Virus record (IMG/VR): IMGVR_UViG_3300030101_002875 | Span: 3,775-42,420 of that record | Direction: 5' to 3' (one strand) | Source: a virus | Length of the DNA stretch: 38,646 nucleotides | Shown here: positions 1,431 to 5,187 of the stretch, piece after piece | How positions within the stretch are numbered: the first letter of the stretch is position 1 | How the letters are laid out: each line of letters begins with the position of its first letter | Notes under the pieces: model-generated | Told to the model about the DNA's origin: nothing | The model's database searches: none | The model's input: the letters and a program-made list of their open reading frames with translations, nothing else | Translations under genes and position numbers: made by a program

Positions 1431-2543
1431 ATGTCAATAAGACCTAAAGGAAAAAAATGGCAGTATGACTTTATGTATGCTGGCAAGCGTTACAGAAAAA
1501 GCTTTACTGATAAAAAGGACGCACAAGCAGAAGAGTTAGATTTTAAAAGGCATCTTGAAGCTGGGTGGTCAATCGATAAGTTTACGAAGACGAGCGAACA
1601 AAAACAGAAACTAAAATCAGAGATTAACTTACAGGAGATGTTTGATTTAGTTTTGGATACTCACTGGAAAGGTAAAGCAAACTATGACAATGCCTTCAGC
1701 CATTCTAAAATGATCTGTGAGTATTTTGGTTCTAAGATGAAAGTAAAGGACATTGATCTTGTTGAGTTGAACGGTTTAAATCTGCATTTAAAACAAGCTG
1801 GTAACAGTGATGCAACACGTAAGCTAAAATTTGCTACACTTTCAACGGCCATGACTGAAGTTTTGAAGGCCGGATACATTCAATCAAAGCCGACCTTTCC
1901 AAAAATTAAAGTTGATAATGAAAGGTATGTTTTCTTTTCCCGTGAGGAAGAAGTAGAGATACTGGAATTTCTTGAAGCATCAGGCGAAGATTATTTTTAT
2001 GACTTTTTCTGCTGGCAAATGGATACTGGTTGCCGTCCTGGGGAATCAAGATCTATAAGACCTGAACATGTAAGGACAGATGACAATCTTGGATTGGTTG
2101 TTGATTTGTATGCAGAGAACACAAAGTCAAAAGTTAATAGAACGATTCCATTGACAAGACGAGCAATTGTCTCTTATAAAAACCAAGCTCACAGAGATAA
2201 ACTTTGGGATTATTGGACGAAGGAGCGAATTAGAACGGTGTGGGATAAGGTCAGAAAACACATGGGAAGAACGCGTGACAAGGATTTTGTCTTTTATTTG
2301 ACTCGGCATACTTGTGGATCAAGGATTGTTGAAGCGACCGGGTCTATCTATCTTGTAAAAGAGATGTTGGGTCATAAATCGCTAGAGCAATCTATGCGTT
2401 ACGCAAAGCTATCTCCAAGCAACCTTCGACAAGCTCTATGCGCTTTAGACAGGGGTCTGGAGTTAAGTGACAAAACAGTGACAAATGTGTCCCAATTTAG
2501 GGACAATTTAAAGTCTAAAAAGGAGAACAACAAGATAGCTTGA
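1431..2543 (+). CDS. int: tyrosine site-specific integrase
   Basis: 370 residues, normal for phage integrases. The N-terminus (about 1-45) is an arm-binding type domain (KKWQYDFMYAGKRYRKSF). About 66-150 is a SAM-like core-binding region. The C-terminal catalytic domain shows Arg202 (TGCRPGE), the beta-hairpin Lys at 232/234, Arg292 in LTRHTCGSR, His315 (LGH) and the Tyr324 nucleophile (MRYAKL). The usual first His of box II is Tyr289 here, a variant known in this family. ATG 1431 follows an AAAGGG-containing leader. An attP core lies just downstream and one arm-type repeat lies inside its last codons. It would insert the phage into a host tRNA-Leu gene. High confidence. Confidence 0.96.
   Translation: MSIRPKGKKWQYDFMYAGKRYRKSFTDKKDAQAEELDFKRHLEAGWSIDKFTKTSEQKQKLKSEINLQEMFDLVLDTHWKGKANYDNAFSHSKMICEYFGSKMKVKDIDLVELNGLNLHLKQAGNSDATRKLKFATLSTAMTEVLKAGYIQSKPTFPKIKVDNERYVFFSREEEVEILEFLEASGEDYFYDFFCWQMDTGCRPGESRSIRPEHVRTDDNLGLVVDLYAENTKSKVNRTIPLTRRAIVSYKNQAHRDKLWDYWTKERIRTVWDKVRKHMGRTRDKDFVFYLTRHTCGSRIVEATGSIYLVKEMLGHKSLEQSMRYAKLSPSNLRQALCALDRGLELSDKTVTNVSQFRDNLKSKKENNKIA
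2467..2483 (+). repeat. attP arm-type repeat, left copy
   Basis: GTGACAAAACAGTGACA. It contains two TGACA elements 11 bp apart (one helical turn) and lies within the 3' end of the integrase gene. A near-identical copy lies at 2711-2727. The two flank the tRNA-derived core at nearly equal distances (92 and 90 bases between), as expected of arm sites bound by the integrase N-terminal domain. Function is inferred. Confidence 0.6.
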
Positions 2544-2568
2544 AACGTATGTCCAGTATAGGTTTTAA
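2540..2568 (+). promoter_or_regulatory. weak promoter-like sequence before attP core
   Basis: TTGAAA (2540-2545), 17 bases, then TTTTAA (2563-2568, only a 3/6 match to TATAAT). Transcription would begin almost exactly at the first base of the tRNA-like sequence (2576). It could let the phage supply a promoter to the tRNA-Leu gene rebuilt after integration. Weak by sequence; kept because of its position. Confidence 0.2.
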
Positions 2569-2575
2569 GCTTTGT

Positions 2576-2620
2576 GCGGCTGTGGCGGAACTGGTAGACG
2601 CGCCAGATTTAGGTACTGGG
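2576..2620 (+). other. attP: attP core: 5' half of a tRNA-Leu(UAG) gene
   Basis: The segment reads like a bacterial tRNA-Leu from its first base: acceptor strand GCGGCTG, TG at positions 8-9, a D-arm with GGTAGACGC, then an anticodon arm CCAG-ATTTAGGTA-CTGG with anticodon TAG. After this the sequence no longer fits: there is no long variable arm, T-arm or acceptor 3' strand. It is therefore not a working tRNA but a shared core for integration into the host gene. A short frame through it (2540-2725) gives the false peptide AELVDAPDLGTGG, which is often mis-annotated over such tRNAs. Confidence 0.85.
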
Positions 2621-2710
2621 GGTTCTTATCGATTATTCTATAACCGTTGTCCTGCGGAGCTATGTCACCAGTCAAATACCAAAATACTGTTCTGCGAAAA
2701 CTTCTTGGAG

Positions 2711-2727
2711 GTGACAAAACGCTGACA
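2711..2727 (+). repeat. attP arm-type repeat, right copy
   Basis: GTGACAAAACGCTGACA matches the left copy (2467) in 15 of 17 bases, with the same 11-bp spacing between TGACA elements. It ends 12 bases before the RNA polymerase ATG, so integrase bound here could also affect polymerase expression. An inverted TGTCAC at 2663-2668 may be a further site. Confidence 0.6.
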
Positions 2728-2739
2728 TAATTTATCAAC

Positions 2740-5187
2740 ATGTTAGATCAGGACGACTTAAACAGAGAGATGGTTGAAATTGGCATAGGTCGATTTAACT
2801 CTCAGTGGAACAAAGCAAAAGAAAGCGAAAAGATATCGCGTTCAAAAGCCGGGCAAAGGCTCCTTAGAGATTTACTTCCTGAATACACAAAACAAGTAGC
2901 CACGTTGCTTGAAAGATCAAAGGGCAGACCTACGCGCTGGAAAGAAGACCTACAGCGTTTTGATCCCAAGGTGTTAGCCTTTGTTGCAATCAAAGTCATC
3001 ATGGACTCTATCGCTTTTAAAAAGACTATGGCTGCTACAAGTTATTGGGTTGGCCGGATGATTGAGCATGAAGTCAAGTGTCAGTTTTTGGTAGACACAA
3101 ACCCTGAAAAAGGAAAAGGAATTATTTTGGGAGCCAAGCGTCGCGTTACGAGTTCTCAGATGCGACACATCCAACTGTCGATGCGTAATGAGGCAAAGAA
3201 AAAAGGCATGCCGGAATTCGAGGACTGGTCACGTAAAGATAGAGTCAGTTGTGGTATGAATTTTGTTGAACTGCTACGTGCCTCGACTGGTTTGATTGAG
3301 TATTATTATTTTACTGAAAAGGGACGAAAGTATCCAACAAGATTTGTATCAGCTACGCCAGAGACTTTACAGTGGGTTGCAGATTTCAACAGTTACCACG
3401 CAGTGCTTGAACCTTTTTGGATGCCGACTTTAGATCCACCTGTAGATTGGAAAAATGTCTGGGTGGGTGGCTATAGGCCAAGTGAAAAGCTAAACCTTCC
3501 GCAAACGCCGTTTATAAAAACAGCAGACAGTTCTTTTTTAAGAATGATAAAGCCGACTGACATGCAGATTCCAAGAGAGGCTGTAAATCTAATTCAAAGA
3601 ACACCCTGGGAGATCAATGAAAGAGTTTTTGATGTTGTTGAGTGGGCTTGGAATAATGGCGTACCAATAAAAGGATTACCTGAACAAGACGATATGCCCA
3701 TACCTCCTTTTCCAGAAGACGGAGAAGAAAATAAACATGTTAGAGATAAGTGGGCTAAAGTTGCAAGGGTCATTCATAAAAGAAATTTATCAACACGATC
3801 AAAGAGAATGTTGACTAGCAAGATTTTAAGACTTGCAAGTAAATTTAAAGGTGAAAGGTTTTTCTTACCAAGCAATTGTGATTTTAGAGGCAGAGTTTAC
3901 AACACTCCGGTATTTTTAAATCCCCAGGGACCAGACTTATGCCGGGGTCTGATGCAGTTTTACAGAGAGGAAAGAATAAAAAATGCTGAAGGCGCAAAAT
4001 GGCTGGCGATCCACGGATCTAATTGTTGGGGTTATGATAAAGTTAGTCTCGAAGATAGAATAAAGTGGTCCTATGATTTTGGGGAGGATGCTATAAAAAT
4101 TGCTAGCGACCCTAAGTCCTTTACGCTTTGGCTTGATGCTGACAAACCTTTTAGTTTTTTGGCGTGGGTGTTTGAGTGGGCTGAGTATTATGAAAACTTT
4201 AAAAAAGGAAAGCATCGATTAAAGACGAAGATCCCGGTCATGATGGACGCAACCAACAACGGTTTGCAGATACTTTCTATTCTCACAAGATGCGACTATG
4301 GAACTGTAGCCACTAATTGCACTCCAAGTTCAACAAACACTCCGGCAGATATTTATGATGTTGTTAAAGTCAGGGCTGAATCCAGGATGCGCGAAGACGC
4401 TTCAAACAATCATCCTTTTGCTTCTACTTGGCTTGAGTATGGAATAAACAGATCGACAACCAAAAAGTGTGTGATGTGTTTTCCGTATGGACTTAGCAAG
4501 TATAGTTCGCGACAGTACATTGCAGATTGGTTTGACGATAAAATTCATGGCGATCAATGCCCCTCACCTTTTGATCAAAAAGAATATTACAAAGCCGTAC
4601 ATTATTTGAACGATAAAGTTTGGAACGCCATTGAAGAAGTTTTAGATTTGCCAAAGAGATGTATGGATTGGTTCCAAGAGGTTTCTAAAATCGCTTGTAA
4701 TAACGGACAGCCTCTTTGGTGGAAAACACCTTCAGGTTTTGTTGTAAAACAATCTTATAAAAAAATAAAAGACAGCAAAGTAAGCACTTGGATTTCAGGC
4801 GAAGCTATACACATAAAATTCAACAACACGACCGATCAGTTGAGTCCTCGTAAGCAAGCTAACGGCGTGGCGCCTAACGTAACTCACAGTTTGGACTCTT
4901 CGCTGCTTCATTTGACTGTTGTTTCTGCTAACAAAGGCACAAAGCAGCATAAAGGTATCTATGACTTTTCAATGATACACGACAGCTATGGAACCCACAG
5001 TCCAAACTGTCAGTTCTTAGCCGAGGTGATAAGAGATGAAGCTGTAAAAATGTTTACGCCTGATTTGTTGCGTGACTGGTTGGACCAGATTAAAAAACAA
5101 AACCCTGGCATAGAGTTTCCAGAGCCGCCCAAATACGGTTCTGCGGATGTGTCCTTGATACGGGACAGTCCGTTTTTCTTTTCGTAA
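2740..5187 (+). CDS. T7-like single-subunit RNA polymerase
   Basis: 815 residues (T7 gp1 has 883). It transcribes the middle and late phage genes. Catalytic Asp503 lies in DATNNGLQILS (T7 Asp537), Lys575 and Tyr583 in KKCVMCFPYG (T7 Lys631/Tyr639, same 8-residue spacing), and Asp748 in HDSYGTHS (T7 Asp812). The C-terminus ends in a Phe-rich DSPFFFS, similar to the T7 FAFA foot. The start ATG 2740 has no Shine-Dalgarno and lies 12 bases after an att arm repeat. The gene follows attP directly, so its 5' neighbour would change on integration. High confidence. Confidence 0.97.
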   Translation: MLDQDDLNREMVEIGIGRFNSQWNKAKESEKISRSKAGQRLLRDLLPEYTKQVATLLERSKGRPTRWKEDLQRFDPKVLAFVAIKVIMDSIAFKKTMAATSYWVGRMIEHEVKCQFLVDTNPEKGKGIILGAKRRVTSSQMRHIQLSMRNEAKKKGMPEFEDWSRKDRVSCGMNFVELLRASTGLIEYYYFTEKGRKYPTRFVSATPETLQWVADFNSYHAVLEPFWMPTLDPPVDWKNVWVGGYRPSEKLNLPQTPFIKTADSSFLRMIKPTDMQIPREAVNLIQRTPWEINERVFDVVEWAWNNGVPIKGLPEQDDMPIPPFPEDGEENKHVRDKWAKVARVIHKRNLSTRSKRMLTSKILRLASKFKGERFFLPSNCDFRGRVYNTPVFLNPQGPDLCRGLMQFYREERIKNAEGAKWLAIHGSNCWGYDKVSLEDRIKWSYDFGEDAIKIASDPKSFTLWLDADKPFSFLAWVFEWAEYYENFKKGKHRLKTKIPVMMDATNNGLQILSILTRCDYGTVATNCTPSSTNTPADIYDVVKVRAESRMREDASNNHPFASTWLEYGINRSTTKKCVMCFPYGLSKYSSRQYIADWFDDKIHGDQCPSPFDQKEYYKAVHYLNDKVWNAIEEVLDLPKRCMDWFQEVSKIACNNGQPLWWKTPSGFVVKQSYKKIKDSKVSTWISGEAIHIKFNNTTDQLSPRKQANGVAPNVTHSLDSSLLHLTVVSANKGTKQHKGIYDFSMIHDSYGTHSPNCQFLAEVIRDEAVKMFTPDLLRDWLDQIKKQNPGIEFPEPPKYGSADVSLIRDSPFFFS

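Follow-up and report, generated by a model that had tools for sequence, protein, structure and literature searches.

Why does half of a tRNA gene lie between the integrase gene and the RNA polymerase gene of a T7-like phage, and what are the repeated sequences that flank it? The window, meaning the whole 38.6-kb stretch of DNA analysed in this study, covers bases 3775-42420 of a viral record of 42,420 bases. It was originally predicted that the interval is an integrase attachment site (attP) with arm sites. This reading is supported by the conservation of the repeats in relatives, a predicted arm-binding domain in the integrase, and the division of the arms between the two ends of a related prophage. 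The interval is very probably a lambda/P2-type attP of a heterobivalent tyrosine integrase, with arm-type sites.

Gene order and repeats in the window

On the + strand, the integrase gene (int) is followed by the 5′ half of a tRNA-Leu(TAG) and a T7-type RNA polymerase gene. The features of the locus are as follows.

1431..2543, + strand: tyrosine integrase (int), 370 aa, three-domain type (PF00589 E 1.5e-16; PF13102 E 8.6e-5; PHROG integrase E 1.7e-50)
1431..1562, + strand: predicted arm-binding domain, integrase codons 1-44 (AlphaFold2 model; PF12167 below cut-off)
2457..2540, + strand: predicted disordered integrase tail, codons 343-370, whose DNA carries the left arm (pLDDT about 40)
2467..2472, + strand: putative arm element P1, GTGACA
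2478..2483, + strand: putative arm element P2, GTGACA, 11 bp 3′ of P1 (98% conserved)
2488..2493, - strand: possible inverted arm element P3, TGTCCC (conservation limited to TGTC)
2500..2505, + strand: putative arm element P4, GGGACA, 33 bp 3′ of P1 (GTGACA or CTGACA in relatives)
2576..2614, + strand: tRNA-Leu(TAG) 5′ half, identical to Rhizobiales tRNA-Leu genes
2603..2619, + strand: presumed crossover core CCAGA - TTTAGGT - ACTGG (anticodon stem, 7-bp loop, stem)
2663..2668, - strand: putative inverted arm element P′1, TGTCAC
2711..2716, + strand: putative arm element P′2, GTGACA
2722..2727, + strand: putative arm element P′3, CTGACA, 11 bp 3′ of P′2 (98% conserved)
2740..5187, + strand: T7-type RNA polymerase gene, directly 3′ of the right arm (PF00940 E 1e-81)

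No tRNA gene was detected in the window. An ORF upstream of int (769-1137, 122 aa) occupies the position where related phages carry a MarR-type regulator, and has no Pfam or PHROG match. Scanning the three ORFs upstream of int against Pfam and PHROG revealed no match to any family, and thus no recognisable excisionase. The RNA polymerase gene lacks a Shine-Dalgarno sequence close to its ATG, and the nearest GGAGG is located about 28 bases upstream, at P′2 (window 2700-2740).

As predicted, two near-identical 17-mers, GTGACAAAACAGTGACA at 2467 and GTGACAAAACGCTGACA at 2711, flank the tRNA half and are identical at 15 of 17 positions. Each contains two TGACA elements 11 bp apart; the left pair is GTGACA-N5-GTGACA (2467 and 2478), and the right pair is GTGACA-N5-CTGACA (2711 and 2722). 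It was also confirmed that the left repeat lies in the int frame, that the right one ends (at 2727) 12 bases before the RNA polymerase ATG at 2740, and that an inverted TGTCAC exists at 2663. Two further elements had been missed: a GGGACA at 2500, 33 bp from the first element, and an inverted TGTC at 2488. Positions 2468 and 2712 are the only places in the window where the pattern TGACA-N6-TGACA is found. When a 500-bp segment was shuffled with a Markov model, one of 5000 shuffles produced a comparable double pair of 5-mers, and 2 of 200 produced a 15/17 match at the observed distance. For the window, the count of 6-mers by itself did not reach significance (P 0.06).

The arms had been described as symmetric, 92 and 90 bases from the tRNA piece. 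This symmetry was rejected, because the two distances change with the endpoint assigned to the tRNA match. Measured from the presumed crossover in the anticodon loop (centre 2611), the arms are asymmetric, lying at about -142 to -108 on the left and +54 to +114 on the right.

Conservation among relatives

Are the repeats absent or unphased in close relatives? I aligned the window with 11 relatives from viral contigs (12 loci), whose integrases are 54-99% (group A, L002-L006) or 53-57% (group B, L009-L014) identical to that of the window. Both the motif and the spacing were kept in all 11 relatives, at integrase identities of at least 53%. All seven elements hold their position in 12/12 loci (integrase identity 53-99%), with the members of each pair still 11 bp apart and P4 still 33 bp from P1. 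The element 5-mers are 98% conserved in the 12 loci, compared with 93% for the tRNA core and 75% for all other columns; in 20,000 random placements of the blocks, this level of conservation was never reached. A DNA similarity search of phage records matched only tRNA-Leu pieces.

Within the int tail, conservation of the arm bases reaches 95-100% at all three codon positions, compared with 73-80% for the remaining bases. Since the arm bases are kept regardless of codon position, selection on the int tail appears to act on the DNA rather than on the protein, which fits the disordered tail in the structural model.

The first base (in the motif sense) of P1, P4, P′1, and P′2 is G in group A and C in all six group-B loci. 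The element at 2500 reads GGGACA in the window, GTGACA in L005 and L006, and CTGACA in the six group-B relatives. P2 is GTGACA in both groups, and P′3 is CTGACA in nearly all loci. Because four scattered sites change together, the concerted G-to-C change points to one protein reading all of them, as judged from the alignment, although the change may represent few events since the group members share ancestry. One group-B locus, L009, has an altered anticodon loop, GATTATGTTTCT, in its tRNA piece (about 2870-2910), unlike all its relatives; this may be either a decayed attP or a site adapted to a different attB.

Domain structure of the integrase

The catalytic domain is present, and R202, R292, H315, and Y324 are invariant in 11 loci. 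A core-binding SAM-like domain was recognised slightly above the cut-off (PF13102, 23.3 bits; cut-off 22.3), and 65 residues precede it. Residues 1-44 were modelled by AlphaFold2 as three strands and a helix (E2-6, E9-16, E19-25, H28-44) with a pLDDT of 83-87. The same topology has been described as the fold of arm-binding domains (PMC8138268). Thus, the N-terminus of the integrase is predicted to be an arm-binding domain. The match of PF12167 (Arm-DNA-bind_2) to this domain was below the cut-off of 22 (17.9 bits, E 0.003), and a Foldseek search with the N-domain alone gave nothing significant, its weak resemblances including AP2 DNA-binding domains. Among solved structures, P2 Int (5c6k) and HP1 Int (1aih) are the closest in sequence. 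The best fold match of the full-length model is lambda Int (1z1b), with a low TM-score due to the uncertain placement of the domains in the model.

The tRNA core and the presumed crossover

It was found that 39 bases, GCGGCTG...TTTAGGT (2576-2614), exactly match tRNA-Leu(TAG) in eight Rhizobiales genomes. The tRNA half had been given as 45 bp (2576-2620); its start stands, while the exact identity is shorter, since it stops with the anticodon loop, after which the next base is A instead of T. The eight exact matches lie in genome contigs, and all five that were checked with ARAGORN are full tRNA-Leu genes. A related tRNA half with one mismatch was found in 4 of 385 alphaproteobacterial genomes. 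The tRNA half is thus a clue to the host, but the host is not nameable from it because tRNA halves are conserved too widely.

By analogy with lambda-type integrases, a 7-bp overlap would be expected to coincide with the 7-base loop between CCAGA and ACTGG. When the window was joined in silico with an Ahrensia tRNA, a whole tRNA-Leu(TAG) resulted at the junction next to int, and the junction next to the RNA polymerase gene contained no tRNA. Between the arms and the core, no match to the IHF consensus WATCAANNNNTTR (up to 2 mismatches) was found at a position shared by all loci.

A related prophage

A prophage of the window's own lineage was not found in the 385 alphaproteobacterial genomes. 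One of them, G314, has a T7-like prophage of 40.6 kb on a 3.33-Mb contig (G314:C1:77627-118309; L053-L055 and L082), and its integrase is 29% identical to that of the window. The RNA polymerase gene (78028-80505) lies at one end of the prophage and int (117065-118126) at the other. A direct repeat, CAGACTCAAAATCTG (15-bp core), occurs at 77655 and 118261 and corresponds to the anticodon stem-loop of tRNA-Leu(CAA), the counterpart of the stem-loop that holds the presumed crossover in the window. Joining the host flanks in silico at the repeat rebuilt tRNA-Leu(CAA). GTGAC elements are located beside the int end (118130, 118142, 118147, and 118161) and in the interval from the opposite junction to the RNA polymerase gene (77780, 77801 inverted, and 77808). 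Int and the P arm are thus at one end and the P′ arm and the RNA polymerase gene at the other, as the reading of a split attP predicts.

The G314 prophage disrupts the only tRNA-Leu(CAA) gene detected in the host and has its own complete copy beside int. The integration leaves the host tRNA unrebuilt, and the phage supplies a whole tRNA-Leu(CAA) (118166-118253), which is the only intact gene with that anticodon detected. Such tRNA-dependent lysogeny has been described for actinobacteriophages (PMC10865867). G314 is a candidate for this type of lysogeny outside Actinobacteria, in a T7-like phage. In contrast, the window has only a tRNA half, and the join gives a whole tRNA.

Three other genomes, G214 (L048), G216, and G283, have related int or RNA polymerase genes and no usable junction. 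In G216 (G216:C1:419691-424256, L069), a T7-like int and an RNA polymerase gene are still adjacent in the bacterial assembly; therefore, this phage has not integrated through an attP between int and the RNA polymerase gene.

Other T7-like phages

An alignment of 31 T7-like integrases revealed two forms. The stretch before the core-binding domain comprises about 57-75 residues in the window lineage, the Votkovviruses, LUZ100, RHEph01/21, ProddE, and others, and 0-7 residues in HTVC019P, HTVC109P, P-SSP7, S-TIP28, S-CBP3, and others. HTVC309P and HTVC120P are intermediate, with 27 residues. From these sequences, T7-like integrases may be divided into two classes, according to whether they possess an arm-binding domain. 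Flanking repeats are clear in long-form phages, such as LUZ100 (CGACAC, six copies), ProddE (GCAACC, five copies), and S28C10 (GGTGAC, four copies). In a 6-mer repeat test of 25 non-duplicate T7-like int modules, the median P was 0.067 with the N-domain and 0.34 without it. The higher abundance of flanking repeats in modules with the N-domain is only suggestive, because the Mann-Whitney p for the difference was 0.058.

The Votkovviruses HTVC119P, HTVC200P, and S28C10 have a GTGAC pair in the 3′ end of int and another over the start of the RNA polymerase gene. The elements of these pairs are 12-13 bp apart (about 2489-2506 and 2694-2712 in L028; about 2484-2501 and 2689-2707 in L036), and both arms are nested in coding sequence. 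Complete tRNAs lie near int in L034 (1403-1488), L036 (1397-1480), L063 (2791-2879), and L057 (3997-4074); they are tRNA-Leu in LUZ100, YIMV22061, and Lo5R7ANS and of an unnamed type in S28C10. It is possible that they are further phage-supplied replacement tRNAs.

Comparison with known systems

In the attP of lambda, arm-type sites flank the core to the left and right (PMC4880445). The window shares this arrangement, as well as an integrase with N-terminal, core-binding, and catalytic domains. On the other hand, its core is a tRNA anticodon stem-loop, its P arm is embedded in the 3′ end of int, no IHF-consensus site is conserved in the aligned loci, and no Xis was recognised in the three upstream ORFs scanned. 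The P2 and HP1 integrases (IntP2 subgroup), the nearest in sequence among solved structures, belong to a different phage family, while the motif of the window is TGACA-based.

In Cluster K mycobacteriophages (CrimD, Anaya, Adephagia, and Pixie), paired arm-type repeats flank a tRNA core, and the arm-site consensus changes between phages (PMC3203893). This concerted change is of the same kind as that between groups A and B. In contrast, the Cluster K phages belong to another phage group, their repeats are 11 bp long, and their core lies 5′ of int, while the core of the window lies 3′ of int.

Integration into tRNA-Leu has been demonstrated by PCR for S-TIP37 and P-SSP7, while the integration and lysogeny of T7-like phages are debated (PMC8776855). 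P-SSP7, S-TIP37, and HTVC019P resemble the window in having a tRNA 5′ half between int and the RNA polymerase gene in the same orientation. However, only 4-7 residues precede the core-binding domain of the P-SSP7, S-TIP28, HTVC019P, and HTVC109P integrases, and their intervals have no clear arm repeats. The arm repeats had been regarded as the newer part of the locus. This holds for a T7-like phage, since the open-access literature searched yielded no previous account of arm sites in phages of this type, but not for paired arm-type repeats as such, which are known in mycobacteriophages.

Alternative explanations

The repeats may have a dual use, being arm sites whose occupation by the integrase also blocks RNA polymerase expression. 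This is a possible but rather doubtful addition to the attP reading. The distance of 12 bp between P′3 and the RNA polymerase ATG is consistent with it, as is the Votkovvirus GTGAC pair overlapping the start codon region of the RNA polymerase gene; however, a scan of the right arm found neither a sigma-70 promoter nor a terminator.

Might the TGACA elements be operators of a transcription regulator for the RNA polymerase gene (and int) rather than arm sites? The right pair is located where a repressor would act, and a MarR-type regulator is encoded beside int in the modules of related phages. Yet the window yielded no recognisable MarR gene, ORF 769-1137 included; four elements lie inside the int frame, across the tRNA core; the paired pattern is absent elsewhere in the window; and the GTGAC elements of G314 are at both ends of the integrated DNA. 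Operators are thus an improbable explanation. That the right 17-mer is a duplication leftover or a functionless chance repeat is scarcely credible: the identity is only 15/17, and shuffles occasionally gave a similar pair, but the spacing and the 5-mers persist at 53% integrase identity while the surrounding bases change, and the linkers between the elements differ.

Proposed mechanism and implications

Returning to the attP with arm-type sites, I infer that the integrase is the protein that binds the elements, that it forms a bridged complex on them, and that the phage of the window integrates. The N-domain would bind the TGACA elements, four in the P arm at the 3′ end of int and three in the P′ arm, and the 11-bp pairs would align neighbouring N-domains along roughly one face of the helix. 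The core-binding and catalytic domains would cut the tRNA-Leu anticodon stem-loop, and recombination would take place with the tRNA-Leu(TAG) gene of the host. Most likely, the integrase bridges the arms and the core as in lambda. Integration would rebuild the tRNA on the int side from the phage 5′ half and the host 3′ half, and would leave the host promoter and the host 5′ half before the P′ arm and the RNA polymerase gene.

Early promoters upstream of int have been mapped in LUZ100 (PMC10134795). Since attP lies between int and the RNA polymerase gene, integration would separate the latter from such promoters. It may be tentatively speculated that integration itself is the lysis-lysogeny switch, with attP placed in the early gene row, the RNA polymerase gene moved behind the host tRNA promoter, and its start covered by integrase molecules on the right arm. 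The codons of the predicted disordered tail of the integrase contain the left arm, and thus the site and the enzyme would be inherited together. The two integrase classes may predict which T7-like phages have directional, regulated integration.
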